From Algoriphagus lutimaris (GTDB taxonomy: Bacteria; Bacteroidota; Bacteroidia; Cytophagales; Cyclobacteriaceae), in contig NZ_JAFIDJ010000002.1 in NCBI RefSeq assembly GCF_017051705.1, positions 124,001 to 188,000 of the forward strand: a stretch of DNA of 64,000 nucleotides. The letters are read 5' to 3'. Made by a program: the position numbers and the translations under genes. Below, one piece after another: positions 8,121-23,707 of this stretch. Within the stretch, counting starts at the first letter, position 1; the number at the start of each line of letters is the position of its first letter. Under the pieces are notes generated by a model, which had not been told where the DNA came from, searched no databases, and saw nothing but the letters and a program-made list of their open reading frames with translations.

Positions 8121-10739
8121 TTACACTTCCACAGGAGCATCTATATTTTTAAAATACACCTGCTTATCTGCATCTAAGTCGACCAATACTGCTGAATCAT
8201 TCTTGACGTAGCCAGAAAGAATCTGCTTTGACAATTCATTCAAAATCAGACGCTGCATGGTTCTTTTCAATGGTCTCGCTCCAAAATTGGGATCAAAACC
8301 AACCTCTCCTAAATAATCCAGAACTTCCGTAGTAGCTTCAATTTCAATATTTGCTTCAGCAAGTCGTTTTTGAATCTCTTTCCATTGAATATCCACAATC
8401 TTTCGGATGATCTTCTTATTTAATGGCTCGAACATGATTACCTCATCAATTCTATTTAGGAATTCCGGTCGCACAGACTGCTTTAATAAATCAAAAGCCT
8501 CCTGTTTGGTTTTTTCCATGATTTCTTCTTTGTTCCATTCCTCAATTTCAGCAAATCGTTCCTGAATCAAGTTGGAACCGATATTGGTAGTCAAAATGAT
8601 AATGGTATTCTTGAAACTCGCAATTCTACCTTTATTATCTGTCAACCTCCCATCATCCAAGACCTGAAGTAAGATATTGAATACATCTGGGTGTGCTTTC
8701 TCAATCTCATCCAACAAGACTACAGAATAAGGCTTTCTCCTAACCGCCTCAGTCAATTGACCACCTTCATCGTATCCCACGTATCCTGGAGGCGCTCCCA
8801 CCAACCTGCTCACTGCATGTCTTTCTTGGTATTCGGACATGTCAATTCTCACCATGGCATTTTCATCATTGAAGAGGTATTCCGCCAAGGCCTTGGCAAG
8901 TTCGGTCTTACCCACTCCTGTAGTACCCATGAAGATGAAGCTTCCAATTGGACGTTTCGGATCCTGTAAGCCTGCTCTACTTCTTCTGACCGCGTCAGAC
9001 AATGCAGTGATAGCTTCTTTTTGCCCGGCCACTCGCTTGCCTAATTCTTCCTCCAAGTGCAATAATTTCTCTCGTTCAGATTGAATCATTTTTGACAAAG
9101 GAATACCAGTCCATTTAGAAACTACTGCGGCAATATCCTCTTGATCTACCTCTTCTTTCAGCAAAGGAGATCCAGATTGCATCTCTGCCAATTGCTTTTT
9201 GAAAGACTCTAGTTTTTGCTCTGCTTCGCCAATTTTTCCATATCGGATTTCGGCAACTTTTCCGAAATCACCGGCTCGCTCCGCTTGTTCAGCTTCCAGT
9301 TTGTAATTATCGATACGCTCCTTTTCACGTTGGATACCGGTAATCACCGCTTTTTCGCTTTCCCACTTAGCTTTCACACTATCTCGCTTCTCAGAAAGCT
9401 CCGCCAATTCCTTACTCAGAACAGTTTCTTTGTCCTTGTTCTTTTCTCTTCGGATCGCTTCACGTTCGATTTCCAGCTGCATGATTCTTCGATTCAGCTC
9501 ATCGAGCTCTTGAGGCAAAGAATCAATTTCCATCCTCAATTTCGCAGCTGCTTCGTCCATTAAGTCAATAGCCTTATCCGGCAAAAAACGATCAGAAATG
9601 TAACGTTGAGACAGCTCTACAGCTGAAATGACTGCATCATCTTTGATTCGAACCCCGTGGTGAACTTCATACTTATCTTTAATTCCCCTTAGAATTGATA
9701 TTGCATCTGCAGCATCTGGTTCATCAACAATCACAGCTTGGAATCTTCTTTCCAAAGCTTTGTCTTTTTCGATATATTTCTGATACTCTTTCAGAGTCGT
9801 TGCACCGATCGCATGCAACTCACCCCTCGCCAAAGCTGGCTTCAACAAGTTGGCTGCATCCATGGCACCTTCTCCTCCTCCACCTGCTCCAATCAGCGTA
9901 TGAATCTCATCGATGAAAAGAATAATTTCTCCTTCTGCATCTGTCACTTCTTTGATCACAGCTTTCAATCGCTCCTCAAATTCTCCTTTGTATTTAGCCC
10001 CAGCTACCAATAAACCCATGTCCAATGAGATCAAGGTTTTGGATTTTAGGTTTTCAGGCACATCACCAGAAACAATTCGCTGAGCCAAACCTTCCACAAT
10101 GGCAGTTTTACCCACACCAGGCTCACCTAATAAGATGGGGTTATTTTTAGTTCTTCTTGCTAAAATTTGAAGAACCCTTCTAATTTCTTCATCTCGACCA
10201 ATAACCGGATCTATTTTTCCTTTCTTGGCCATTTCGTTCAGGTTTTTAGAATACTTCTCTAAAGCCTGATATTTACTTTCTGCATTTGGGTCTGTCACTT
10301 TGTTACCTTTTCTAAGTTCTTTAATTGCCTCGATCAATGGTTTTTCAGAAATACCCTGATCTTTTAAAATCCTTGAAGCAGGATCCCCTGCCGCCAGAAT
10401 GCTCAACAGTAAATGCTCAATTGCCACATATTCATCCCCAAAAGTTTTTAAATAATCTTTTGCTTTGGTCAATACTTGGTTGGCGGCATTACTTAAGTAG
10501 GGTTGTTGTCCTCCACTTACTTTTGGCAAACGCTCTAATTGTTCATCCAATTTTTGATTGAGCAATTGCTTATTTGCACCGAGTTTTTTGAATAAAAAAT
10601 CGGTTACATTTTCATCCTCTGAGAAAATTCCTTTCAGTATATGAGCGGGCTCGATATTAGGCTGACCTGCAGCTGATGCCAACTCCACCGCTTTCTGAAT
10701 CGCCTCTTGGGACTTGATTGTAAATTGTTTGAAATCCAT
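8121..10739 (-). CDS. clpB: ATP-dependent chaperone ClpB
   Basis: 872 residues from the ATG at 10739, which gives the canonical [14 protein letters not shown]-terminus; an in-frame ATG 63 bp upstream adds unrelated residues. Order: Clp-N repeat domain (1-145), first AAA+ module with Walker A GEPGVGKT at 205-212 and Walker [10 protein letters not shown], a long coiled-coil middle domain (about 405-530), a second AAA+ module with GTTGVGKT at 605-612 and LLDEIEKAH, and a small C-terminal domain. ClpB works with DnaK/DnaJ to pull proteins out of aggregates in the cytosol. The length is normal and no ClpP-binding loop is expected. Monocistronic, with its own terminator; I see no clear CIRCE element upstream. 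Confidence 0.97.
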
Positions 10740-10967
10740 TATAGTTGGTTTTTTTAAGTTTCTAATTTGAACGAGTACCCCAGGAAAATCTCTACATTTC
10801 ACCTATCCCGGATGTAACACATTTTTTATTTAGCAAATCCAACTCCAAGTATATTTTCAAGTCATTATGACCGATAAATATCCTTTTTATTCAAAAATTC
10901 GGATTTTTTGGCAGTAAAATAGGCTAGGTAAATAAAAATGAAGGACAAGTTACCAGCGCCTTATAAA

Positions 10968-12437
10968 CTACTTTTGCTCCTTGGCCACGGTCATGTCTCC
11001 AATATCAATTGCTAAGCTAGGATATTCTTCCTCCAATCGACTAACTAACTCCTTGCTCACTTTTGTATTCCACACGTACACACTTTGAAGGCTTTTGATT
11101 TGGGCAAGCAAATTCAGTGTAGAATCCCCTATAGATGTATTATAAAGATTGACAGTTTCTAAGTTCTTCAACCCCCCTAATGCAGATGCACCTTGATCAG
11201 TAATTGGATTATTATCCAATAATAATTTTGTTAGATTCTGGAAATCCGAGATGACACTTAAGGATTCATCTTTTACATCAGATTCACCCAAGTCTAGCCA
11301 AGTGATTTGTTCTCCAATCTCTTTTAACGCCTCAATATTTTCACTTTTCAACTTCCCAATGGCTACTACCTCCAAGAAATTATTTTCTTCGGATAGCGTA
11401 GCAATCCTAAACCCTTGCTTCCTCACTTCATTCAAGGTAGCTTCAGGAGCAGCCTCTAACTTCACTTTTTCATAATGAGCCTTTCTTCGCGTAGAAAGTC
11501 CATAGGTACTCTCGATCAATTCTTTAATTTCTTTTGGAATCACTTCATCTGTCACACTTAACTTTTGATCAATTCCACTTTCTATCCAATACTTCAATAA
11601 GGTTATTTCTCCATAAGAAAGCCCTGCTCCTTTTGGTGGCATAAACTTTTTACTTTCAGGATTCAAGGTCACCCGCTGATACAATTCACTAGTGGACAAA
11701 GAGCCCTCCTCAATCGCAGGACCAGTCTCTCCCCCTTCTTTCAAATCCTCTAATGTCATAATGCTCAGTCCTCCCTTTTTTGATTCTCCCTGATGGCATG
11801 AGGCACATTTTTGAATTAAAGCTGGCTGGATAATATGTTCGAATACCAAAGTGGAATCTGCATCCTCTGGAAAGGAATAATTGGCTTCTTCTGATTCGCT
11901 AATGGAGATAAATCCCTGAATGAAGGACGGGGCATAATCAAAAAGGTATCCTTCACCATGTGTGAGATTTCCTCCCAAATGTCCCGTAATGGAAATACAG
12001 ATTGCCAGCATCCCCAAACAAAACCCAAGCTGCTTTTTCTGCTTGTTTATTTCTGAATCAAGAAAATGAATATTCAATCTTTCCTTGAGTGGTATTCCAG
12101 ATGAATCTTTATCAAAAAAGCCTAAGATCAAAAGCAATGAAATTACAGAAATTAAGGCCACCGCAATGCCCATCCATCTGTGCCAGGACAAGGTCCCTTC
12201 TGGATACCCTCCTTCGGTGGCAAGAAAAAACCCAAATAACACTGCCAAAATTGCACTTATGGCACTCAATAGTAGGATCAAAGGAAGCGAAGTCATTAAG
12301 AATCGAAACTTCTTAAAAAGCGACAAAAGAAAGACAGCAACTCCCAGTAGAATAAAACCAATTGGCAGATGCACTATTAATGAATGAAATCGTCCGAAAA
12401 ATAAGGTAGAATCTGATTGCAAAAAGATATTGAACAT
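10968..12437 (-). CDS. DUF2231 membrane protein with cytochrome c and leucine-rich repeat domains
   Basis: 489 residues. Residues 1-180 hold four or five membrane segments of the DUF2231 type (HSLIVHLPIGFILLG at the start). Residues about 200-285 form a planctomycete-type cytochrome c domain with heme motif CASCH at 211-215 and distal KKFMPPKG, where the Met may be the sixth ligand. The last 130 residues hold leucine-rich repeats (LTKLLLDNNPITD, LETVNLYNTSIGD). The cytochrome and LRR parts should face the periplasm. The gene is divergent from the FG-GAP lipoprotein gene (about 100 bp apart) and near the DUF1501/DUF1553 pair, so it probably belongs to the same electron-transfer or degradation system. 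The substrate is unknown. Confidence 0.82.
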   Translation of the reverse strand: MFNIFLQSDSTLFFGRFHSLIVHLPIGFILLGVAVFLLSLFKKFRFLMTSLPLILLLSAISAILAVLFGFFLATEGGYPEGTLSWHRWMGIAVALISVISLLLILGFFDKDSSGIPLKERLNIHFLDSEINKQKKQLGFCLGMLAICISITGHLGGNLTHGEGYLFDYAPSFIQGFISISESEEANYSFPEDADSTLVFEHIIQPALIQKCASCHQGESKKGGLSIMTLEDLKEGGETGPAIEEGSLSTSELYQRVTLNPESKKFMPPKGAGLSYGEITLLKYWIESGIDQKLSVTDEVIPKEIKELIESTYGLSTRRKAHYEKVKLEAAPEATLNEVRKQGFRIATLSEENNFLEVVAIGKLKSENIEALKEIGEQITWLDLGESDVKDESLSVISDFQNLTKLLLDNNPITDQGASALGGLKNLETVNLYNTSIGDSTLNLLAQIKSLQSVYVWNTKVSKELVSRLEEEYPSLAIDIGDMTVAKEQK

Positions 12438-12536
12438 ACATTTAAAATTGACTTATTTAAAGATAACATTTGTACCTTACATTTATGTAATACAAATTCT
12501 TGTAGATCAAATTAAATTAGGATAATCTTCTTGCCA

Positions 12537-14093
12537 ATGATCAATTTTTTCAAATCATTCATTCTTCTCGGCTCTATTTTTTGTTTTTTAAACTCATGCA
12601 ATAAGCCAAAGCAAGAGCTAGCATCGAAGTTGTCAGATGATTTTCTTTGGGAAGACCAAACTGATATCTACTTACCCAACACAGCAGAATGGACGAATCG
12701 AGTGGAAGCCGCAGACCTAAACAAAGATGGTAAAGTAGATCTGATGTTCGCGAACGGGGGAGATTATTCAGAGCCTGGCAAGTTAGAATCTAGTCGTATT
12801 TTTCTCAACCAAGGTCCCAACTCGCCATTTCTTGAAATCACCAAACAAGTTTTTGGCGAAGATAAATTTTATGCCAGAGTGATTAAAGCCAGAGATTTAA
12901 ACCAAGATGGTTTTACGGATTTGTTGGTAGGCAGCACTTTTCAAACCCAAAGTGAATTATACTTAGGACAGCAAAACGGGCAATTTATAAGAGTAACTGA
13001 GACTCATCTTCCCTCTAAAGTAGCTAGTATAGGAGATTTAGAATTTGGGGATGTGGACGCAGATGGGGATCTTGATGTAGTTTTATCAGATTGGGGCCCT
13101 GGCTCCAACATGGATAATGAAGGAGGCAAAACCCTGTTATGGCTCAATGACGGATCTGGAAAATTTGAAGATGTCACAGATTCCCATATGCCGGATCTAT
13201 TAATCCAATTTTCTTGGGATTTGGAATTTTTTGATTTCGATAATGACTTTGACTTAGATATTGCCATATCATGTAAAAGATGTGGTACAAGTCGAGTTTT
13301 TGAAAATGATGGCAAAGGTCATTTCATAGACAAAAGGATGTTGCCTGCATATACCAATAATTATGAATTTGAAATTGCAGACATCAATCAAGATGGATTC
13401 CTGGATTTAGTTACTGTCAACGATGGAGAAATTGTAGATGGTAAATCATGGTCCAGACGTGAGCATGTTTTTCTAAATGATAGTGCTAAGCGATTTCTTG
13501 ATGCTACTTCTTCACTATGGTTAGATCAGGACAACATAGGAGAGGATGATAACAATGTCGTATTTTTGGATTTTGATTCCGATGGCGATCCTGATTTTAT
13601 CCTCAGCTCGCTTACAGGTGAAGACCGCTTGTTGATCAATGACGGAACTGGAAAATTTAAACTTCAACAAAGCATTCTTTCTGGAGATCCCACTCCCCAT
13701 ACTCTTTCCTTGATCTTCGCTGATCTAAACAATGACTATAAAATGGATATCATTATGGGACAAGGAGAAGGAGAAGAATCCATAGAGGAACGCATCTATA
13801 TCGGTAAAAAAGTCCAAGCAGATACCGCTCCGCCTATTATTTCACATATTGAACAAACATCGTCATCGGATGGGACAAGTAAAGTCTATGCTCGTGTATC
13901 GGACAATAAAAGCCCCAGCATGCCCCAAGACTGGAAAGAGGTAGTAGTGGTCTCAGGCTCAAAAAAAATCTCAATGACATGGTACGGAGAATATTTATGG
14001 TTTGCCGACTTGTCAAAATTGGAAACTGAAAACCCCATTGAAATTTGTGCCACTGATGCAGCGGGAAACCAAGCCTGTAGAAAGATCGATTGA
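12537..14093 (+). CDS. FG-GAP/VCBS repeat lipoprotein, seven-bladed propeller
   Basis: 518 residues. Start set at the ATG at 12537 because it leads into a lipoprotein signal with lipobox LNSC (Cys21); the TTG at 12531 only adds two residues. Seven Ca2+-binding loops of the DxNxDG type occur at regular spacing (DLNKDGKVD, DLNQDGFTD, DVDADGDLD, DFDNDFDLD, DINQDGFLD, DFDSDGDPD, DLNNDYKMD), which predicts an integrin-alpha-like seven-bladed propeller. A small C-terminal beta domain of about 90 residues follows. It should be anchored in the envelope. It ends 4 bp from the convergent DUF1501 gene and is divergent from the DUF2231-cytochrome gene; I infer a shared role, perhaps substrate binding. 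Confidence 0.85.
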   Translation: MINFFKSFILLGSIFCFLNSCNKPKQELASKLSDDFLWEDQTDIYLPNTAEWTNRVEAADLNKDGKVDLMFANGGDYSEPGKLESSRIFLNQGPNSPFLEITKQVFGEDKFYARVIKARDLNQDGFTDLLVGSTFQTQSELYLGQQNGQFIRVTETHLPSKVASIGDLEFGDVDADGDLDVVLSDWGPGSNMDNEGGKTLLWLNDGSGKFEDVTDSHMPDLLIQFSWDLEFFDFDNDFDLDIAISCKRCGTSRVFENDGKGHFIDKRMLPAYTNNYEFEIADINQDGFLDLVTVNDGEIVDGKSWSRREHVFLNDSAKRFLDATSSLWLDQDNIGEDDNNVVFLDFDSDGDPDFILSSLTGEDRLLINDGTGKFKLQQSILSGDPTPHTLSLIFADLNNDYKMDIIMGQGEGEESIEERIYIGKKVQADTAPPIISHIEQTSSSDGTSKVYARVSDNKSPSMPQDWKEVVVVSGSKKISMTWYGEYLWFADLSKLETENPIEICATDAAGNQACRKID

Positions 14094-14097
14094 AAAT

Positions 14098-15510
14098 TTA
14101 GCTCAAAATATCCCTGACAACATTTCCTTCCACATCGGTTAATCTGAATCTTCTACCTTGGAATTTATAAGTCAACCGCTCGTGATCCAATCCCATTAAA
14201 TGAAGTAATGTCGCATTTAGATCATGGACATGAACAGGGTTTTCTACCACGTGATATCCAAAATCATCTGTTCTTCCATAAGTCAAACCCTTTTTCACTC
14301 CTGCTCCTGCCAATAGCATGGTATAGGCGTCTGGATGATGATCCCTTCCAAAATTATCCTTTGTCAGCTCTCCTTGCGAAAAACAGGTCCTACCAAATTC
14401 TCCTCCCCAAACCACTAAAGTATCTTCCAATAAACCTCTTTGTTTTAAGTCCATAATTAAGGCGGCACTCGCTTGGTCAACTTCCTTGGCACGCTTCGCA
14501 ATACTTTTAGGCAAATCATTATGATGATCCCAACCTCCATGATACACTTGGATAAATTTCACACCACGCTCCGCTAATCTCCTCGCTAATAAACAATTAC
14601 TGGCAAAAGTACCGGACTTTTTGCTATCCTCTCCATATTGCTCATAAATGTAATCTGGCTCACCTTTGGTATCAACCACTTCTGGAACAGAGGTCTGCAT
14701 TCTAAAGGCCATTTCATATTGAGCCATTTTTGCCTTGATAGATGGGTCTTCCCAAAATTCAAAAGCTCCTTCCTGCATTTTTTTCAAATAATCCAACTGT
14801 TCTCTCCTAACTGATTCAGTTACTCCAGGAGGATTCGTCAAGTATAAAACAGGATCCTTCCCTCCACGAAATCGAACACCTTGATGCTCTGCGGGTAAAA
14901 ATGCGCTGGAATATAACCCTGCAAATCCTCCTTCTAACCCTTCGGTTTTCAAGACAATAAACGCAGGTAAATTCTCATTATCAGATCCTAATCCATAGCT
15001 AATCCAAGATCCAAAAGAAGGCCTGCCAGGAAGTTCAGATCCGGTATTGGTAAACATCTGCGCAGGTTCATGTTGAACAGATGCCGTATGCATGGATTGA
15101 ATTTTACACAACTCATCAGTGATTTTTGACATATTAGGCAACAAATCACTCATCCACATTCCACTTTCTCCATGCTGCTTAAAATTCCATCGCGTCCCCA
15201 CCATGGGAAAAGAATTTTGGGTAGCTGCGGTTCCAGTCAGTCTATCTCCAAATACGCTTGAAGGCAGATTTTCTCCATTCATTTTAACCAACTGTGGCTT
15301 GTAATCAAATAAGTCCAGTTGAGAAGGTGCCCCCGCCATATAGAGGTATATGATTCTTTTAGCTTTTGGGACGAAATGAGGTTTATTTCCAAATGCGAAA
15401 AGAGAAGAAGGGTCCAGTAAGGAAGCGAGTGAAACAGCTCCTATCCCCAAAGATGTTTTAGTCAAAAACTCTCTCCTAGTCAAAGGTAAATGTATATGAT
15501 TATGTCCCAT
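14098..15510 (-). CDS. DUF1501 protein, Tat-exported
   Basis: 470 residues. The N-terminus has a twin-arginine signal, TRREFLTK with Arg12-Arg13, followed by a hydrophobic stretch, so it should cross the inner membrane folded. The rest is the DUF1501 domain, distantly related to the sulfatase/alkaline phosphatase fold, with YMAGAPSQLDLFD, VYHGGWDHH and GGEFGRTCFS. DUF1501 genes are almost always paired with DUF1549/DUF1553 cytochrome genes in Planctomycetota and many Bacteroidota; here that gene ends only 2 bp upstream, so the two form an operon. The reaction is not established; a role in polysaccharide or sulfate-ester breakdown has been suggested for this gene pair. Confidence 0.88.
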   Translation of the reverse strand: MGHNHIHLPLTRREFLTKTSLGIGAVSLASLLDPSSLFAFGNKPHFVPKAKRIIYLYMAGAPSQLDLFDYKPQLVKMNGENLPSSVFGDRLTGTAATQNSFPMVGTRWNFKQHGESGMWMSDLLPNMSKITDELCKIQSMHTASVQHEPAQMFTNTGSELPGRPSFGSWISYGLGSDNENLPAFIVLKTEGLEGGFAGLYSSAFLPAEHQGVRFRGGKDPVLYLTNPPGVTESVRREQLDYLKKMQEGAFEFWEDPSIKAKMAQYEMAFRMQTSVPEVVDTKGEPDYIYEQYGEDSKKSGTFASNCLLARRLAERGVKFIQVYHGGWDHHNDLPKSIAKRAKEVDQASAALIMDLKQRGLLEDTLVVWGGEFGRTCFSQGELTKDNFGRDHHPDAYTMLLAGAGVKKGLTYGRTDDFGYHVVENPVHVHDLNATLLHLMGLDHERLTYKFQGRRFRLTDVEGNVVRDILS

Positions 15511-15512
15511 AG

Positions 15513-18500
15513 TTACCTTTTCATATAAGTTTCATCAAAATTTAAAATCGAATTTGCTACTAAGGTTAATGCAGCAGTTTGCGTCTTGTCAAGGGCTTGA
15601 TCTCTAGGTAATTCTCCTACGGCCAGTAAAGAATCAGCTGACATCGGATTTTCCTGAAAATGCGCATAGGCACTTTCATAATATTCTTTTAGAGTAGCCA
15701 GTAATTTCTCATTCGGAGTAACGCCTGTGGCCAATCGAAAACTTAGTTTAAGCTGATCTTCAATGGCCTCTTCCTCTTTAATTACCCGTTCAGACATGAA
15801 CCTGGAAGCCTCAATAAACTGAGGCCCGTTCAATAAATTAAGCGCTTGAAGGGGAGTATTTGTATTGACCCTTTTCGTAATACAGATCTCCCGGTTTGAT
15901 GCATCGAACGTAATCATGTAAGGCGCTGGAGAAAATCTTCTGGTAAACGTATAGAGGCTTCTTCTATGGAGGTTACTCCCCGTATCTTGTCTGTATTTAT
16001 GTAGCTTAAATGAGAAATCTCCCAATTCCTCCCATAATCCTTCTGGCTGATATGGTTTAACACTCGGCCCACCGATTTTTTTATCTAAAATACCACTGGA
16101 TGCCAATGCATTATCACGGATAAATTCTGCCGGCAGTCTATAACTACTTGACCTGGCGTAATATTTATTTTCAGGATCTGCTTCGTATTTCTCAGGATCT
16201 GCAAAAGAAGATTGCTGATAGGTAGCAGACATCACCATCAATTTTAGCATACTCCTCAAATCCCATCCGCTATCCATAAACTCATACGCCAACCAATCCA
16301 ATAACTCTGGATGAGTAGGTAAGTCTCCTTGAATACCAAAGTCTCCAGAAGTCTTGACAATCCCAGTACCAAAAATCATTTGCCAATATCTATTGATGAT
16401 CACACGGGAAGGCAAAGGATTCTCTGGATTTATGATCCATTTAGCCAACCCCAATCTATTTTGAGGATAATCTTCCGGAAACGGAAGGACATTTTCTGGA
16501 GTACTTGGTAAAACTTTTTCCCCATAATCATTATAAACTCCCCTCTTTAACAAAAAGGTAGGTCTGGGTTCAGGCATATCTTCCATTACCATCACTTCTT
16601 GGGTCGTTTCCAAAATCTCCAATTTCGCTTTTCTTAGGGAGCGAATTTCATTCCTAAGCTCTATGGCTTTTCTTTCCTGTGCCAACAGGTATTCCTTAGA
16701 GGATTCGGAAGACAATGGCCTGGAAGTATCCCCCACTAAACTTGCCATTTCCAAACTAGTAAGTTCCCTGTCAAAAAGTTTTACCTCATCCATGTATCCT
16801 TTATAAATACCAGGATCAAAGGAAAAAAGACGATAGCTTTTTCCTAATCGAAGGGGCAGGGTATCAATTTTGGCAGTGTATTCATCAATGGGTAAAATAC
16901 TACGCGAAAGCTGATCTGAAACAACTTTCATTTGTTGACTCTCCCCTTCTATATAAAGTGTAACACCTGTTGCTTTTCCTGTTCCATCATAGGAAAACCC
17001 TACTTGAGTCCATGCCTCAAATTTCACAGGCTCCTCCGTTTTCACTTCCAGATAATCATCGGGAAGTCTATGAATGAGACGTACAGATAGATGGTTTGTG
17101 GAATCTAAGAACATTTCCCATCCTCGGTAGAATCCCAAAAAATTATTGCTGTTCCCAATGATGTTCTGAATATGCCTTTTCTCATTTCCTTGAGGTTTAA
17201 TCCAAACACTTGCAGAGAATGAATCATATTGATCAAAAAAGCCAACCTTATTCAAACTGACATAATCGTAATCATCATCAAATAATAACCCTTTCCCTTT
17301 CCAGCCATTCACCAATTCTACACCTAGCGTTGCCTCAGCATTTTTATTATTATCAAGGATCAAGATTTCCTCGTATTCTTTTTTCTTTTTTTTGTTAGCC
17401 TTTTTCAGGGAATCAATTTTAGCTTTTTCCTTTGCGGTTTTAGTCTTGTACTCCTCTGCTTCTTCCTCAGCAAATGGGTTCTTTCTTTTCTTTTCCTTTT
17501 TTATCTTTTCAAAAGATTCAAACGAATATGAAGCAATTTCTTTTGGAAGTAACTTATCGGGAGATATTGTCGCCACATAATCCTTGATTTCATTCACTTC
17601 ATATTCATTTAAAGCCTTCTCCTTTTGCAGAATTAATTGATCCAAGGAGTCCAAACTTTGCCGCTGATGTTCCTTAAAAAGCAACAAAGTGGGAGCTCTA
17701 TTCAAATCGGTTGGCCCTAATCCAAACTCGTCTATGCTATTGAAAAATGCAGAAAGCTGAAAAAAATTCTTTTGGCTGATAGGGTCAAATTTGTGGTCAT
17801 GACATCTGGCGCATCCAATTGTCAGCCCCAAAAAAGCAGTACCTGTTGTAGCTGTTCTTTCTGCCACATATTCAACCCTGTATTCTTCTTGAATTGAACC
17901 TGCAGAAGCCTCCATGGGATTGAGCCTATAAAATGCAGTGGCCAACTTATCCTCTGTAGTCCCATTTGGCAGCAAGTCTCCAGCAACTTGCTTAGTAATA
18001 AAGTCACTGATAGGAATATTATTTTTAAAGGCATTAATTACCCAATCCCGATAAGGCCAAACCTCCCTGTAACCGTCAAAGGAAACCCCATGAGAATCGG
18101 CATATCTGGCTATATCTAACCATTCCATGGTCAATCTTTCTGCATGTTCTTGAGAGGCAAGCAGCCGATCCACTACCTTTTCATAAGCACGTTCAGAGTT
18201 GTCATTTAAAAAATCATCAATCTGTTGGATGGTGGGTGGAAGGCCTGTCAAATCCATCGTCACTCTTCTCAAAAGTCTTTCCTTGTCTGCTTGAGGATTA
18301 GGAGAAAGTCCTTGCCTAAGCAATTCAGCTTGAACAAAATAATCAATCTCATTATTCCTTTTCCAGTCTTCTTTAACTTCAGGGACAGCAGGAGACTCCA
18401 CTTTCAAGAAAGACCAATGCTCTTTCCACTCCGCTCCTTGCTCCACCCATTTGGCAATGGTCGCGATTTCGGCTGGAGTAAGAGAGAGATTCGATTCCGG

Positions 18501-18863
18501 AGGAGGCATGACAGTCTCAGGATCTAAACTAATCATCCTGTGGTATACCTCACTACCTCCTAAACTCCCTTTTGAAAATGCCTTATTTCCGGAGGACAAC
18601 TTCATAAACGCATCTTCCTCAATATCCAATCTCAATCCCGCTTTTCGGGATCCTTCGTCTGGTCCATGACAAGCATAGCAACGATCAGCCAAAATTGGTT
18701 TTACATGGAAATTATAATCTATTTTTTCTGGTAAAGTCTCATAAGCCAACTCCACCTCTTCTGGTAATGAAGGCTGACAAGCAAAAACCAAGAGGAGACC
18801 AAACAAAGAAAATATAGGGATATGGGCCGCCAAACGAGACGATGAAAAGCTATTTGGGTTCAT
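15513..18863 (-). CDS. DUF1549/DUF1553 cytochrome lipoprotein with LamG domain
   Basis: 1116 residues. Lipoprotein signal with lipobox VFAC (Cys29), then a planctomycete-type cytochrome c domain with CYACH at 62-66 and MPPPES, DUF1549 (about 170-370) with a second heme-type motif CARCH at 351-355, a Lys/Glu-rich linker (about 450-495), a LamG/concanavalin-like domain (about 510-710, FSASVWIKP to GYMDEVKLFDRE), and DUF1553 (about 780-1060, NRYWQMIFGTGIVKTSGDFG). It is first in an operon with the DUF1501 gene. Likely an envelope redox protein; the LamG domain suggests glycan or protein binding. Substrate and electron partner are unknown. Confidence 0.88.
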   Translation of the reverse strand: MNPNSFSSSRLAAHIPIFSLFGLLLVFACQPSLPEEVELAYETLPEKIDYNFHVKPILADRCYACHGPDEGSRKAGLRLDIEEDAFMKLSSGNKAFSKGSLGGSEVYHRMISLDPETVMPPPESNLSLTPAEIATIAKWVEQGAEWKEHWSFLKVESPAVPEVKEDWKRNNEIDYFVQAELLRQGLSPNPQADKERLLRRVTMDLTGLPPTIQQIDDFLNDNSERAYEKVVDRLLASQEHAERLTMEWLDIARYADSHGVSFDGYREVWPYRDWVINAFKNNIPISDFITKQVAGDLLPNGTTEDKLATAFYRLNPMEASAGSIQEEYRVEYVAERTATTGTAFLGLTIGCARCHDHKFDPISQKNFFQLSAFFNSIDEFGLGPTDLNRAPTLLLFKEHQRQSLDSLDQLILQKEKALNEYEVNEIKDYVATISPDKLLPKEIASYSFESFEKIKKEKKRKNPFAEEEAEEYKTKTAKEKAKIDSLKKANKKKKKEYEEILILDNNKNAEATLGVELVNGWKGKGLLFDDDYDYVSLNKVGFFDQYDSFSASVWIKPQGNEKRHIQNIIGNSNNFLGFYRGWEMFLDSTNHLSVRLIHRLPDDYLEVKTEEPVKFEAWTQVGFSYDGTGKATGVTLYIEGESQQMKVVSDQLSRSILPIDEYTAKIDTLPLRLGKSYRLFSFDPGIYKGYMDEVKLFDRELTSLEMASLVGDTSRPLSSESSKEYLLAQERKAIELRNEIRSLRKAKLEILETTQEVMVMEDMPEPRPTFLLKRGVYNDYGEKVLPSTPENVLPFPEDYPQNRLGLAKWIINPENPLPSRVIINRYWQMIFGTGIVKTSGDFGIQGDLPTHPELLDWLAYEFMDSGWDLRSMLKLMVMSATYQQSSFADPEKYEADPENKYYARSSSYRLPAEFIRDNALASSGILDKKIGGPSVKPYQPEGLWEELGDFSFKLHKYRQDTGSNLHRRSLYTFTRRFSPAPYMITFDASNREICITKRVNTNTPLQALNLLNGPQFIEASRFMSERVIKEEEAIEDQLKLSFRLATGVTPNEKLLATLKEYYESAYAHFQENPMSADSLLAVGELPRDQALDKTQTAALTLVANSILNFDETYMKR

Positions 18864-19036: not shown

Positions 19037-19540
19037 TTACTTTCCATCGGACTTCAATAAGATGCTAGCCGGGGGTGCTTTTTTATTTCCCCCATGATCC
19101 GGATGAATAAATGTGTGGAAAAATAAACGAAGAAAATACTTTTCCTGTGTCTGAAAAACATTGCTCATTCCATCTGTAATCAAAAACAAATTTTGCAAAT
19201 CCTGTTCTTCTAACCAATCCTGGTCGAGCGACTTAAACATCCTCTGGTAAGGCACATAAGTACCATCCGATTTTTGTATACTAACCGGATTCACAATTTT
19301 CCCATCTTTAACAGTTGCTTTAGCCATGTAGCATTCACTTTTTCCTTGATTGATTACCGTCATCACAGCCTCATGTTCTCCGTCTGAAACTTCATAAGCC
19401 CCTCTCTCATGAAAAGAAATATAATAGTTGCTATAGCAACCTTGTACCCCTGAAGCAAAAATACTTTCTGCTCCTTGACTTTGCGAAAAGGATTTGAAAG
19501 AAATAAGAATTATTGCCGAAAATAAAATTCTGAATTTCAT
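19037..19540 (-). CDS. Secreted protein of unknown function
   Basis: 167 residues with a Sec signal peptide (hydrophobic core, cut near SFSQ). I do not recognise a family. The mature part is mixed alpha/beta with two Cys residues (in GCYSNYY and ECYMA) that could form a disulfide, and a basic, Pro-rich end. It sits 118 bp downstream of the M19 dipeptidase gene on the same strand, has its own terminator and could be part of that transcript. Length and signal support a real gene. Confidence 0.65.
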   Translation of the reverse strand: MKFRILFSAIILISFKSFSQSQGAESIFASGVQGCYSNYYISFHERGAYEVSDGEHEAVMTVINQGKSECYMAKATVKDGKIVNPVSIQKSDGTYVPYQRMFKSLDQDWLEEQDLQNLFLITDGMSNVFQTQEKYFLRLFFHTFIHPDHGGNKKAPPASILLKSDGK

Positions 19541-19658
19541 AAATAAACTGATTAATAAATTACAGGTTTAAATTGGGTAAAAAAATTTAAAAATCAAGCT
19601 TAAAAAGAAAATTAGCTCCTCCAAAAAGAGAAGCTAAACTTAAACCGATATTAGGCCT

Positions 19659-20909
19659 TTAACCTTGAGATTTAGCATATTCCTCCACAGCTCGCCACAC
19701 CCTAAATATATTCCCTGAACAAATTTTTTGTATATCCTCTTCAGAGTAACCTCTTTTCAATAATTCAGCAATCAAATTGGGATACATAGAAACATCTTTC
19801 AATCCGGTAGGCAAGGAATCCCCCACTCCATCAAAATCAGATCCAAGCCCCACATAGTCTATACCTACCAAAGCTACTACATGATCAATATGGTCGGCAA
19901 CTTTCTGTACGGTGGGAAAAGGATTATTGGCAGCAGTATATTCGGCAATATAAGCCTGAGCGGCAGAATCACTTCTACTGAGGTTATTCTCAGCAAGCCA
20001 GTTGACAATATGCTCTCTGACTTTAGCGGAGCCAGCAGCATATGCGGAGTCTATGAAACTACCCCCAAAATTGATCATCATTACTCCACCATTCTTCGCC
20101 ATGGCTTGGATCAGTTCATCACTCATATTTCTCTCAAATCCAGGAGTGAATTTTCTTACTGAAGAATGCGAAGCTATAACCGGCACTTTGGTCACCTCCA
20201 AAGCATCCAAAAATGTTTCATCAGAAACGTGAGAAACATCTACCATAATCCCTACTCGGTTCATTTCTTGAACGACTTGTTTCCCATACTCGCTAAGACC
20301 ATTGTATAGCCTTACCGTATCGTAACTACTATCTCCAATAAGGTTTGCCTTTCCGTGTGTGAGTGTGATGTATCGAATCCCTCTACCATGAAAATATTCA
20401 ACATTGGCAATATCATCTTCTAATCCAGCACCATTTTCCATCCCCATAGGAAGAGAAATCTTTCCTGCAGCAAAATTGGCCTCGATGTCTGCTGGGCTAT
20501 AAGCTATAGCAAATTTGTCAGGAAAAGTCTCTGTCAGTCTTTCGGTCATTAGGATAAGAGAATCCGCCAGGGCTTTGGAAGCGCCAGGGATTTGTTGATT
20601 TACTGCTGGGATATAAATAGACATAAAAGGAGCATCTAACCCTCCCTCTTTGGTTCTAGGATAGTCAAAATTCCCTCCATCAGTTCTTACAGAAACATCA
20701 AGAATTTCTCTTTGCAAGGTAAATCCGCCTACCTTCATTCGATAAGGCAAATCTACATGTCCGTCTACCATGATCGTTTTATGGGCAATTTCTGTAGCTG
20801 CTTGGAGCCGCTCTTCATCGCTCATGCTGGTATAATCAACTGCTACCTCTTTTGGCTGGCATGCCCAGGCCATTAAGCCAATTAATAATAGGGAATAGTT
20901 TTTCTTCAT
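19659..20909 (-). CDS. Membrane dipeptidase (peptidase M19) lipoprotein
   Basis: 416 residues with lipobox AWAC (Cys17). The renal-dipeptidase TIM barrel carries the Zn-binding HxD motif in DGHVDLPYR (His51, Asp53), a Glu in the MGMENGAGLED segment, His in VDVSHVSDE and IASHSSVR, and GLGSDFDG near the end, all typical of M19. It should hydrolyse dipeptides, including ones with a C-terminal D-residue, in the periplasm. Full length. Transcribed away from the esterase gene at 21083, sharing a 173-bp intergenic region. Confidence 0.93.
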   Translation of the reverse strand: MKKNYSLLLIGLMAWACQPKEVAVDYTSMSDEERLQAATEIAHKTIMVDGHVDLPYRMKVGGFTLQREILDVSVRTDGGNFDYPRTKEGGLDAPFMSIYIPAVNQQIPGASKALADSLILMTERLTETFPDKFAIAYSPADIEANFAAGKISLPMGMENGAGLEDDIANVEYFHGRGIRYITLTHGKANLIGDSSYDTVRLYNGLSEYGKQVVQEMNRVGIMVDVSHVSDETFLDALEVTKVPVIASHSSVRKFTPGFERNMSDELIQAMAKNGGVMMINFGGSFIDSAYAAGSAKVREHIVNWLAENNLSRSDSAAQAYIAEYTAANNPFPTVQKVADHIDHVVALVGIDYVGLGSDFDGVGDSLPTGLKDVSMYPNLIAELLKRGYSEEDIQKICSGNIFRVWRAVEEYAKSQG

Positions 20910-21082
20910 ATTGGTTGGTGGTTATTAAAGAGAGAAAGATACTTTCTTTTTATGACTACTTTCAAAAAATTCCACTAAAGGCCATTTCAACCTTTTTAGA
21001 ATTCATATCTTTTCATTTTTCACCCTTGTATTGTTCCATCTAGCAGTTAATCATTAACTTTTAATAGAAAAACCACCTTCAA

Positions 21083-22813
21083 ATGAAAAAACTCATCTAC
21101 TTAATTTTATTATCAGCGCTATTTTCTTCTTGTAATAGCAATGATGATTTACCGGAAATAAAAATCGAAATAGCCTCTGACCTTAGTCAAGATATTTCTG
21201 ATGGAAGACTACTCTTGTTTTTCTCAAAAGACGATTCAAGAGAACCCCGCTTTTCTGTTTCCGACAATGTAAATACTGCCCAAGTTTTCGGAATGGATGT
21301 AGAGAATTTTGAACCTGGGTCTGTCATTGAGTTCAAAATGGATAGTTTTGGATACCCATTAGAGCAACTTTCTAATTTGGAGGAAGGAGACTATTTAGTA
21401 CAAGCATTTTTCATCAAGTACGAAACCTTTGACCGAGGGGATGGCCATCAAGTAAAACTAGCCATGGATCAAGGGGAAGGAAGAAAATGGACCAGTACTC
21501 CAGGAAACACCTATTCATTGCCTATCTCCATTGAATGGAAGAAAGGAAATGACTACCAGCTAATTATCGATCAAAAAATCCCTCCAGTAGAAGAGCCAGA
21601 GGACACTAAGTTCATTAAGCATATCAAGATGAAATCCGAACTTTTGTCCGAGTTCTGGGGTAGGGATATGTTTTTAGGTGCCCATGTCTTATTGCCTGAG
21701 GGATTTGATGAAAACCCTAACCAATATTATCCTTTGATGGTATTTCATGGGCATTTCCCAAGTGATTTTGGGGGATTTCGTACCAGTCCACCAGATCCTA
21801 ATTTAAGTGAAGACGATTTCTCTGCTCGTTTTGGAATCTATGGTTATGAGAAAATCCAACAGCAAGAAGCCTATGATTTTTACCAAAAATGGATATCGCC
21901 TGATTTCAAACGTTTTATTATTATCCAGATACAACATGCCAACCCATTTTACGATGACAGCTATGCCGTAAATTCTGCCAACCTTGGACCTTATGGTGAT
22001 GCCATTACCTATGAACTTATCCCCTATATAGAAAAAGAATTTAGGGGAATTGGCGAAGGTTGGGCCAGGATCCTTTATGGGGGATCCACAGGAGGTTGGG
22101 AAGCTTTAGCTGCTCAGGTATTTTATCCAGATGAATATAATGGTTGCTTCGCAGCTTGTCCTGACCCCATTGATTTTAGAGCATTTACTACCATTAACCT
22201 TTATGAGGACCAAAATGCCTATTATCAGGATGGGGACTTTAAAAAGATTTTACGTCCTGGACATAGGGATTACCTGGGACATGTTTCTTCCATGGTGAAA
22301 GACATGAACCATAGAGAATTAGCAATTGGCGGGGTACAAACCAGATCAGGAGAGCAATTTGACATTTGGCAAGCTGTATATTCCCCGGTAGGACAAGATG
22401 GCTACCCGAAACCGATTTGGAATAAGAAAACGGGTGAAATTGATTCCGAAGTTGCTGAATATTGGAAAGAGAATTACGACCTTCGCTATATCATGGAAAG
22501 AGACTGGGAAACATTAGGGCCAAAATTAGAGGGTAAGGTGAATATTTATTGTGGAGATATGGATAATTACTATTTAAACAATGCGGTTTACCTCACGGAA
22601 GAATTTTTGGAGCAAACTCAAAACCCTTACTACAATGGAGAAGTGGCCTATGGAGATAGGGCTGAACATTGTTGGAATGGAGACCCTACCCTCCCAAATT
22701 ACATTTCCAGACTCCGATACAATACGATGTACTTGGATAAAATCGAGGACCGATTCAAGGCCTCTGCACCTTCCAATTTTAATCAACAAAATTGGACGAT
22801 CACTAAAAATTAA
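21083..22813 (+). CDS. Lipoprotein alpha/beta hydrolase, putative esterase
   Basis: 576 residues with lipobox SSC (Cys17). An N-terminal beta-rich region of about 170 residues precedes an esterase-like alpha/beta hydrolase domain. The nucleophile elbow is GGSTGG (Ser335), preceded by a typical YELIPYIEKEFRG helix, and a likely catalytic His is in RAEHCWNGD near the end. It resembles the Esterase D/feruloyl-esterase-like family (PF00756) but is longer. It may remove ester groups from sugars or peptides outside the inner membrane. The next gene starts 6 bp after its stop, so the two form an operon. Confidence 0.75.
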   Translation: MKKLIYLILLSALFSSCNSNDDLPEIKIEIASDLSQDISDGRLLLFFSKDDSREPRFSVSDNVNTAQVFGMDVENFEPGSVIEFKMDSFGYPLEQLSNLEEGDYLVQAFFIKYETFDRGDGHQVKLAMDQGEGRKWTSTPGNTYSLPISIEWKKGNDYQLIIDQKIPPVEEPEDTKFIKHIKMKSELLSEFWGRDMFLGAHVLLPEGFDENPNQYYPLMVFHGHFPSDFGGFRTSPPDPNLSEDDFSARFGIYGYEKIQQQEAYDFYQKWISPDFKRFIIIQIQHANPFYDDSYAVNSANLGPYGDAITYELIPYIEKEFRGIGEGWARILYGGSTGGWEALAAQVFYPDEYNGCFAACPDPIDFRAFTTINLYEDQNAYYQDGDFKKILRPGHRDYLGHVSSMVKDMNHRELAIGGVQTRSGEQFDIWQAVYSPVGQDGYPKPIWNKKTGEIDSEVAEYWKENYDLRYIMERDWETLGPKLEGKVNIYCGDMDNYYLNNAVYLTEEFLEQTQNPYYNGEVAYGDRAEHCWNGDPTLPNYISRLRYNTMYLDKIEDRFKASAPSNFNQQNWTITKN

Positions 22814-22819
22814 TAGAAT

Positions 22820-23707
22820 ATGAAAAATGTATTAAAACCATGTCTTTACGGCTTGGGAGCTACTTTACTTCTTACTCAATGTAATCCTCAAAAAACAGAA
22901 GAATCCAACGAATCTGAAACTATGGTAGTGGAAGATGCCAAAACTCCCACATTAACCATGGTTTGGGAAACACCAGATAGTCTAATCACCTGTGAATCTA
23001 TTTTATACGACCCTTATACAGGTAAAATCTACGTTTCCAATATTGAAGGAACTCCTACTGACAAGGATGGAAAGGGATCAATCTCCATCATTGATAAAAA
23101 TGGAACCATCGTCACTCAAGATTGGGTAACTGGCTTAAATGCCCCAAAAGGAATGGCTATATCAGATGGAAAGCTTTATGTTACTGATATAGATCAATTG
23201 GTGGAGATTGACATTGAATCTGCTACAATCTCTAATAAATATCCAGTGGAAGGAGCCGAATTCTTAAATGATGTGGCTCAATACGAGGGCAAAATTTACT
23301 TCTCAGGAATGAACAAAGGCTTGTTACATGTACTAGATGGAGGCACAGTCACCACCATTTCAGAAGGAAACGCCTCCTTGAATGGAATAGCGATTGATTC
23401 GAATGGAACTATTTATGGACTAGATGGATCAGGATTGAAAAGATTTTTACCAGATGGAAGTTCTGAAATCATCAATGGAACAGTGACTGGAGGAGACGGT
23501 TTGATTATCTTGGGAGAGGGAAATTACGTCGCTTCAAGGTGGGTAGGAGAAATCTATTTTGTGAGCGGAGATGGGGAAACACTTCTTTTGGATACAAAAG
23601 ATATAGAATCCAACACAGCGGATATTGGTTTTATTCCCGAGGAGAATTTAATTTTAGTACCAACTTTCTTTAAAAATAAAGTAGTTGCCTATAAATTAGA
23701 TTACTAA
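22820..23707 (+). CDS. SMP-30/NHL-like beta-propeller lipoprotein
   Basis: 295 residues with lipobox LTQC (Cys21). The body shows about six repeats of a short beta-sheet pattern (LYVTDIDQLVEID, IYFSGMNKGLLHV, IYGLDGSGLKRF), as in SMP-30/gluconolactonase-like or NHL propellers. I do not see a clear set of lactonase metal ligands, so an enzyme role is uncertain; it may bind a ligand. Cotranscribed with the esterase, it is likely its partner in the same envelope compartment. Confidence 0.7.
   Translation: MKNVLKPCLYGLGATLLLTQCNPQKTEESNESETMVVEDAKTPTLTMVWETPDSLITCESILYDPYTGKIYVSNIEGTPTDKDGKGSISIIDKNGTIVTQDWVTGLNAPKGMAISDGKLYVTDIDQLVEIDIESATISNKYPVEGAEFLNDVAQYEGKIYFSGMNKGLLHVLDGGTVTTISEGNASLNGIAIDSNGTIYGLDGSGLKRFLPDGSSEIINGTVTGGDGLIILGEGNYVASRWVGEIYFVSGDGETLLLDTKDIESNTADIGFIPEENLILVPTFFKNKVVAYKLDY

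Follow-up and report, generated by a model that had tools for sequence, protein, structure and literature searches.

A recurrent DUF1549/DUF1553, DUF1501 and DUF2231-PSCyt1 gene unit in Algoriphagus lutimaris, a candidate envelope redox module

The window analyzed here is a stretch of 64,000 nucleotides from Algoriphagus lutimaris (Bacteroidota; contig NZ_JAFIDJ010000002.1, positions 124,001 to 188,000), and it carries three minus-strand genes that are shown below to form a recurrent, linked unit (the kit). In transcriptional order they encode a DUF1549/DUF1553 (PSCyt2-PSD1) lipoprotein of 1116 residues (15513..18863), a DUF1501 protein with a twin-arginine signal (14098..15510), and a DUF2231-PSCyt1-LRR membrane cytochrome of 489 residues (10968..12437). 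A plus-strand gene for an FG-GAP lipoprotein (12531..14093) stands between the last two. Our tentative reading, to which we give close to an even chance, is that the locus is an envelope redox module in which a DUF1501/DUF1553 substrate unit would exchange electrons through c-type hemes with the membrane DUF2231 protein and quinones.

The recurrent unit and its linkage

Co-occurrence was examined in one set of 148 Bacteroidota genomes, which includes that of the window. DUF1553 was found in 12 of them, and 34 high-scoring DUF1501 and 29 high-scoring kit-type DUF2231 proteins were confined to the same 12. The score thresholds were chosen post hoc at gaps in the bit scores (DUF1501, at least 239 versus at most 113; DUF2231 model, at least 100 versus at most 58), and the second fragments of two split DUF1553 genes were dropped, as was a 34-residue DUF2231 fragment in genome G064. 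A further 56 genomes gave weak DUF1501 matches only, and PSCyt1 alone was more widespread (49/148). All 34 DUF1501 genes lay within 6 kb of a DUF1553 gene and all 35 DUF1553 genes within 7.5 kb of a DUF1501 gene; 26 of the 34 DUF1501 genes were within 6 kb of a kit-type DUF2231 gene, as were 26 of the 29 DUF2231 genes of DUF1501. A second set consisted of the 80 loci that ranked best for similarity to DUF1501 among 587 confirmed. In 78 of these, DUF1501 has a co-oriented DUF1549/1553 gene no more than 600 bp away, with a median gap of 6 bp. Among the 50 loci whose flanks are long enough, the membrane cytochrome is present in 31, a twin-arginine translocation (Tat)-type NHL propeller in 22 and an FG-GAP protein in 2, and all 41 membrane-cytochrome genes in the second set share the strand of the nearest DUF1501 gene. 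These results support the proposal of the first-pass annotation that the locus encodes a common envelope system, with one amendment: the expected co-occurrence holds for the three linked genes, and the FG-GAP gene occurs in only one of the DUF1501 clades examined.

Pfam-A confirmed the domains first assigned to the four genes (DUF2231 2.8e-7, PSCyt1 4.7e-12 and LRR_4 6.7e-7 in the membrane protein; FG-GAP_3 2e-43; DUF1501 8.9e-154; the DUF1549/DUF1553 protein is described below), and the gene coordinates bear out the reported 2 bp between the DUF1553 gene and the downstream DUF1501 gene. The FG-GAP gene ends 4 bp from DUF1501; a 93-bp spacer (12438..12530), which may serve as a promoter, separates its start from the divergent start of the membrane gene. 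Because the FG-GAP gene is opposite in strand to the other three, the four genes are not one operon. The genome of the window holds five pairs of DUF1501 and DUF1553 genes and no unpaired member of either family, so the pairing goes beyond chance. Its eight PSCyt1 domains are distributed between the five DUF1553 proteins and three membrane proteins adjoining three of the pairs. In the fifth pair (L015), DUF2231, PSCyt1, DUF1549 and DUF1553 occupy a single frame of 825 residues. The five DUF1501 paralogs are scattered over five positions in the DUF1501 tree, so the separate paralogs may have different substrates.

Clusters containing DUF1553 were already known in bacteria of the Planctomycetes-Verrucomicrobia-Chlamydiae group. 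Published accounts credit the first description of PSCyt1/PSCyt2-PSD1 genes to Studholme et al. (as cited), count 41 PSD1 and 41 PSC2 copies in Rhodopirellula baltica (PMC2754498) and report PSCyt/PSD1 genes in Verrucomicrobia (PMC5615132), for which a role in carbohydrate metabolism was suggested (He et al., 2017). The planctomycete genes resemble the kit in having the same domains above the Pfam cut-offs, LamG or CBM domains, and a second neighboring gene of unknown family. However, the kit is found in Bacteroidota and adds a linked DUF2231-PSCyt1-LRR protein and clade-specific propellers, which go unmentioned in the accessible portions of PMC2754498 and PMC5615132. A literature search, whose coverage excluded most subscription papers, returned no description of the DUF2231 membrane partner, one paper in which DUF2231 occurs and, among the matches listed, no paper with both DUF1501 and DUF1553. 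For DUF1549/DUF1553, searches of the literature and the PDB turned up no reaction and no solved structure that is close.

Hemes and the membrane cytochrome

The DUF1549/DUF1553 protein, whose lipoprotein signal was recognized by eye, comprises four domains on the minus strand: an N-terminal PSCyt1 cytochrome c domain (residues 62-123, 18495..18680; 1.1e-13), DUF1549 or PSCyt2 (residues 172-378, 17730..18350; 2.2e-80), an inserted LamG domain of the Laminin_G_3 family (residues 530-705, 16749..17276; 7.8e-14) and DUF1553 or PSD1 (residues 802-1061, 15681..16460; 5.6e-93). Scores against the curated cut-offs (52 bits versus 22 for PSCyt1, 270 versus 29.8 for DUF1549, 311.3 versus 28.5 for DUF1553) place it in the PSCyt/PSD1 group. 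Both CxxCH motifs, C62/C65/H66 in PSCyt1 (18666-18680) and C351/C354/H355 in DUF1549 (17799-17813), are invariant in an alignment of 76 sequences, as is Met119 of PSCyt1, and covalent heme is predicted from the motifs. All four domain labels are present in 61 of 88 cluster DUF1553 proteins; LamG is missing from one subclade of relatives, and CBM6 occurs in 2 of 20 DUF1553 proteins. Homology of DUF1553 to DUF1800 was considered and not adopted, the local match being suggestive and not significant (hhalign 6.6%, P 0.0055; 2.8%, P 0.016); for 20 DUF1553 members, PF08811 was absent among the matches listed (25 of 32 families). Separately, PSD2/DUF1585 was weakly matched by 2 of 10 DUF1800 proteins (best E 0.0099), which hints at a possible common ancestry of the partners of DUF1501-type proteins. 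Identity with a fatty-acid isomerase (CTI), considered for one relative, was discarded because the match spans only the end of the cytochrome domain.

The membrane protein combines a four-helix membrane domain (residues 1-165, 11943..12437), a PSCyt1 domain (residues 211-270, 11628..11807) with CxxCH at 11793-11807 and an invariant Met266, and an LRR region (residues 400-455, 11073..11240), all on the minus strand. AlphaFold2 models residues 1-185 as four long helices with a mean predicted local distance difference test score (pLDDT) of 90.4. Five histidines of the membrane domain (H18, H23, H86, H153, H160) are invariant in 40 kit-type sequences, and all five recur in eight further kit-type proteins. 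In our reading of the sequence and helix positions, all five probably point toward one membrane face and the positively charged loops toward the other. Because of this charge distribution, the five invariant histidines should be periplasmic, on the same side as the cytochrome c domain. Fourteen stand-alone DUF2231 proteins (PF09990) resemble the kit type in nearly always keeping H18 (14/14), H23 (13/14) and H86 (14/14); they differ in that 11 lack H153 (present in 3), 12 lack the H153/H160 pair and none contains CxxCH.

Proteins outside the Bacteroidota set show how the domain varies. Genome G150 of the Verrucomicrobiota encodes a five-histidine DUF2231 with PSCyt1, and a Pirellulaceae genome (L142) has PSCyt1 preceding DUF2231, the reverse of the order in the window, with Tyr replacing H153 and H160; the remaining outside genomes gave one DUF2231 protein without cytochrome or motif, and two genomes had no match. 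DUF2231-PSCyt1 is fused in one frame to DUF1549/1553 in L015 and in two other genomes (L116, L118), and a candidate from a third other genome (L117) is truncated by a contig end. In Saccharobesus, genes for a cytochrome c and for a cytochrome b561 (PF01292, 1.7e-25) come after the DUF1501/DUF1553 pair, and no DUF2231 match was found on the plasmid carrying this kit. Prokaryotic cytochrome b561 is a membrane protein thought to carry electrons, and it has conserved histidines for hemes on both sides of the membrane. The kit membrane protein would be like it in carrying electrons in the membrane, and differs in that the window protein has no PF01292 match at E<=0.001 and has its five invariant histidines near one predicted membrane face only.

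Since the histidine pattern, the fusions and the Saccharobesus replacement point the same way when taken together, we favor a redox role for the DUF2231 membrane domain. Two observations limit this reading. The H153/H160 pair, and indeed all five histidines, are also present in 2 of the 14 stand-alone proteins (L134, L136), so GHxGxxxTHG marks kit-type DUF2231 but not exclusively; and the fold match of the membrane domain is generic, the fold comparison leaving its function unsettled. The neighbors of L134 and L136, which lack CxxCH, look by eye like metal-handling genes.

The passage of electrons to the membrane cytochrome, as first proposed, is plausible from linkage, fusion and replacement, and it stays at the level of a sequence-based proposal. 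In the envelope redox module, the Tat-exported, folded DUF1501 and the DUF1549/DUF1553 protein would form the substrate-binding unit, and electrons would move between the heme of DUF1549, those of the PSCyt1 domains and the DUF2231 domain in the membrane. This last domain may hold, among its histidines on the periplasmic side, a cofactor that would most likely be heme b, and it would join the module to the quinone pool; the likely direction would be substrate oxidation. A bolder version, which we think improbable but worth stating, is that the kit represents a new class of quinone-linked periplasmic oxidoreductase: its substrate subunit would have an alkaline-phosphatase fold in place of a flavin, molybdenum or pyrroloquinoline quinone enzyme, its active site would contain or adjoin the heme of DUF1549, and DUF2231-PSCyt1 (GHxGxxxTHG) would be a new b/c-type cytochrome family.

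DUF1501, the substrate and rival explanations

Profile comparison suggests that DUF1501 belongs with the alkaline-phosphatase superfamily. Using hhalign, DUF1501 matched sulfatase-like proteins at 91% and 94% (P 1.3e-7 in the 94% run), over the C-terminal part only; the 14 sulfatase-like proteins in these comparisons were named by look. Nine DUF1501 members gave weak Pfam matches to PF01663 (6/9, best 0.003) and PF00884 (4/9, best 0.0024), and a PDB search with the DUF1501 profile returned arylsulfatases, ENPP4 and LtaS (best E 0.0085), which are distant superfamily matches only. The twin-arginine motif is conserved in 87 aligned sequences (R12 100%, R13 98%). Across 42 rows covering both DUF1501 classes (41 distinct), H147, D328, H330, F372 and R374 never vary, and position 156 is always occupied by Thr or Ser. 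After H147, the Thr/Ser at +9, a Gly mostly at +10 and, in the DUF1553-paired class, a Pro at +2 recall by eye the CxPxR...TG of sulfatases. A nucleophile assignment from this spacing was dropped and none is claimed, because the N-terminal half, where the superfamily nucleophile would be expected, gave a profile alignment of P 0.45.

These similarities are the main argument for regarding DUF1501 as a phosphatase- or sulfatase-like hydrolase or lyase, with the DUF1553 cytochrome as a sensor or structural partner and electron transfer secondary. The conservation of T/S156, H147, D328 and H330 is a further argument, and elsewhere DUF1501 works beside the heme-free DUF1800 (PMC5122149). In the present sample, a Pfam-confirmed DUF1800 neighbor was found at 10 of the 14 low-scoring DUF1501 loci fetched. 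The DUF1800-DUF1501 pair is like the kit in that the gene next to a Tat-type DUF1501 is as large or larger, but DUF1800 has no cytochrome domain, whereas the DUF1553 partner has two invariant heme motifs and a linked membrane cytochrome; together with the poor alignment of the expected nucleophile region, this makes a hydrolase or lyase with only incidental electron transfer unlikely in our judgment. The DUF1501-DUF1800 genes occur with a chitin synthase, and their co-transfer with this bacterial enzyme and a sugar epimerase (PMC5122149) raises the idea that the pair builds or modifies the cell's own surface polysaccharide and does not serve feeding. However, that precedent concerns the DUF1800-paired, low-scoring class (at most 113 bits to PF07394 in our sample), not the kit class, and no glycosyltransferase was found among the Pfam-scanned neighbors in the window; we regard this explanation as very unlikely.

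A third possibility, doubtful yet deserving more weight than the other two, is that the kit is a carbohydrate-utilization module oxidizing glycans or their sugars. LamG is present in most DUF1553 proteins and CBM6 in a few, and several kits, some of them on plasmids, lie near carbohydrate genes: those for GH115, GH98 and GH43 glycoside hydrolases and fucP at two Catenovulum kits, pectate lyase and GH88 at the Saccharobesus kit, and SusC and SusD at a distance of 6-9 kb in Haliscomenobacter. At least two members of a third clade (L014, L050) have a gene for a xylose-isomerase-type TIM barrel separating DUF1501 from the cytochrome. Sugar-isomerase-like PF01261 genes within 10 kb numbered at least six against 2.2 expected (P 0.025; five listed plus the TIM-barrel one), a marginal result from a hand count among the matches listed and one of three tests. 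In the 80 loci, an uncontrolled survey by look placed SusC-like genes at 11 loci, sulfatase-like ones at 9 and SusD-like ones at 5. On the other hand, SusD was found within 10 kb of none of 34 kits, that of the window included (1.75 expected; some contigs end sooner), which sets the kit apart from a SusC/SusD polysaccharide utilization locus. Sulfatases amounted to at least three genes at two kits, by hand count among the matches listed, against 2.6 expected, or about chance (the calculation used 2), and no carbohydrate gene was recognized by Pfam directly adjoining the kit in the window. The glycan-like substrate first proposed thus finds no backing in the SusD and listed sulfatase counts, and the reading of the neighborhoods as glycan loci was abandoned. 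LamG, the occasional CBM6, the sugar-isomerase-like or chitobiase-like neighbors and the glycoside hydrolases of plasmid kits keep a carbohydrate substrate possible, and extracellular carbohydrate is the leading guess. Two sulfatase genes were noted close to another kit of the genome of the window (L011, 3075-5786).

Clade-specific accessories, neighbors and outlook

The FG-GAP gene is a clade-specific accessory. Calcium-type motifs of the form D-x-[DN]-x-[DN] occur seven times in its product, and translation probably begins at the ATG at 12537, two codons inside the listed TTG frame. In a DUF1501 tree of 103 rows, the window groups with L100, L020 and L124 (100% SH-aLRT branch support); the tree was built quickly and contains long branches, especially that of L019, and partial or odd-length DUF1501 sequences, L095 among them, were left out. 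An FG-GAP protein of 518-527 residues, on the strand opposite to the kit, is encoded at these four loci and at L095, and in L020 and L124 its gene comes after the membrane gene, not before it. Elsewhere in the 80 loci, FG-GAP proteins are only of more than 1000 residues (L041, L084, L086). Of the four nearest loci, three (L021, L026, L086) have an NHL propeller, and the clade without LamG often adds a protein with a chitobiase-like domain. The best PDB matches of the NHL propeller of other clades are TRIM-type NHL proteins (1.4e-15) and peptidylglycine amidating lyase (3fvz, 1.3e-11); the FG-GAP protein would be an accessory, perhaps with the same role. A Tat-type propeller-like protein, a chitobiase-like protein and a DUF2231 cytochrome also form a set at L114 (4530-8507), in a stretch without a DUF1553/DUF1501 pair.

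Beside the kit, at 19037-23707 of the window, are genes for a 167-residue protein of unknown family, an M19 dipeptidase, an esterase-like protein and a lipoprotein-like protein of 295 residues, and the same set lies beside the L100 kit of the same genus. The nearest named relative is an Algoriphagus metagenome-assembled genome (L095), whose DUF1501 is 97% identical; in this near-identical genome DUF1501 is split across two frames (about 10001-11406), possibly by an assembly error.

DUF1549/DUF1553 domains reach tens of copies in some planctomycetes. Now that a three-part unit including a membrane partner is defined and a specific set of histidines is known in it, the electron question becomes testable, through the presence of a b-type heme and the identity of its reductant. 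If the envelope redox module is real, it would be an added respiratory entry point in Bacteroidota and in some Verrucomicrobiota and Gammaproteobacteria.
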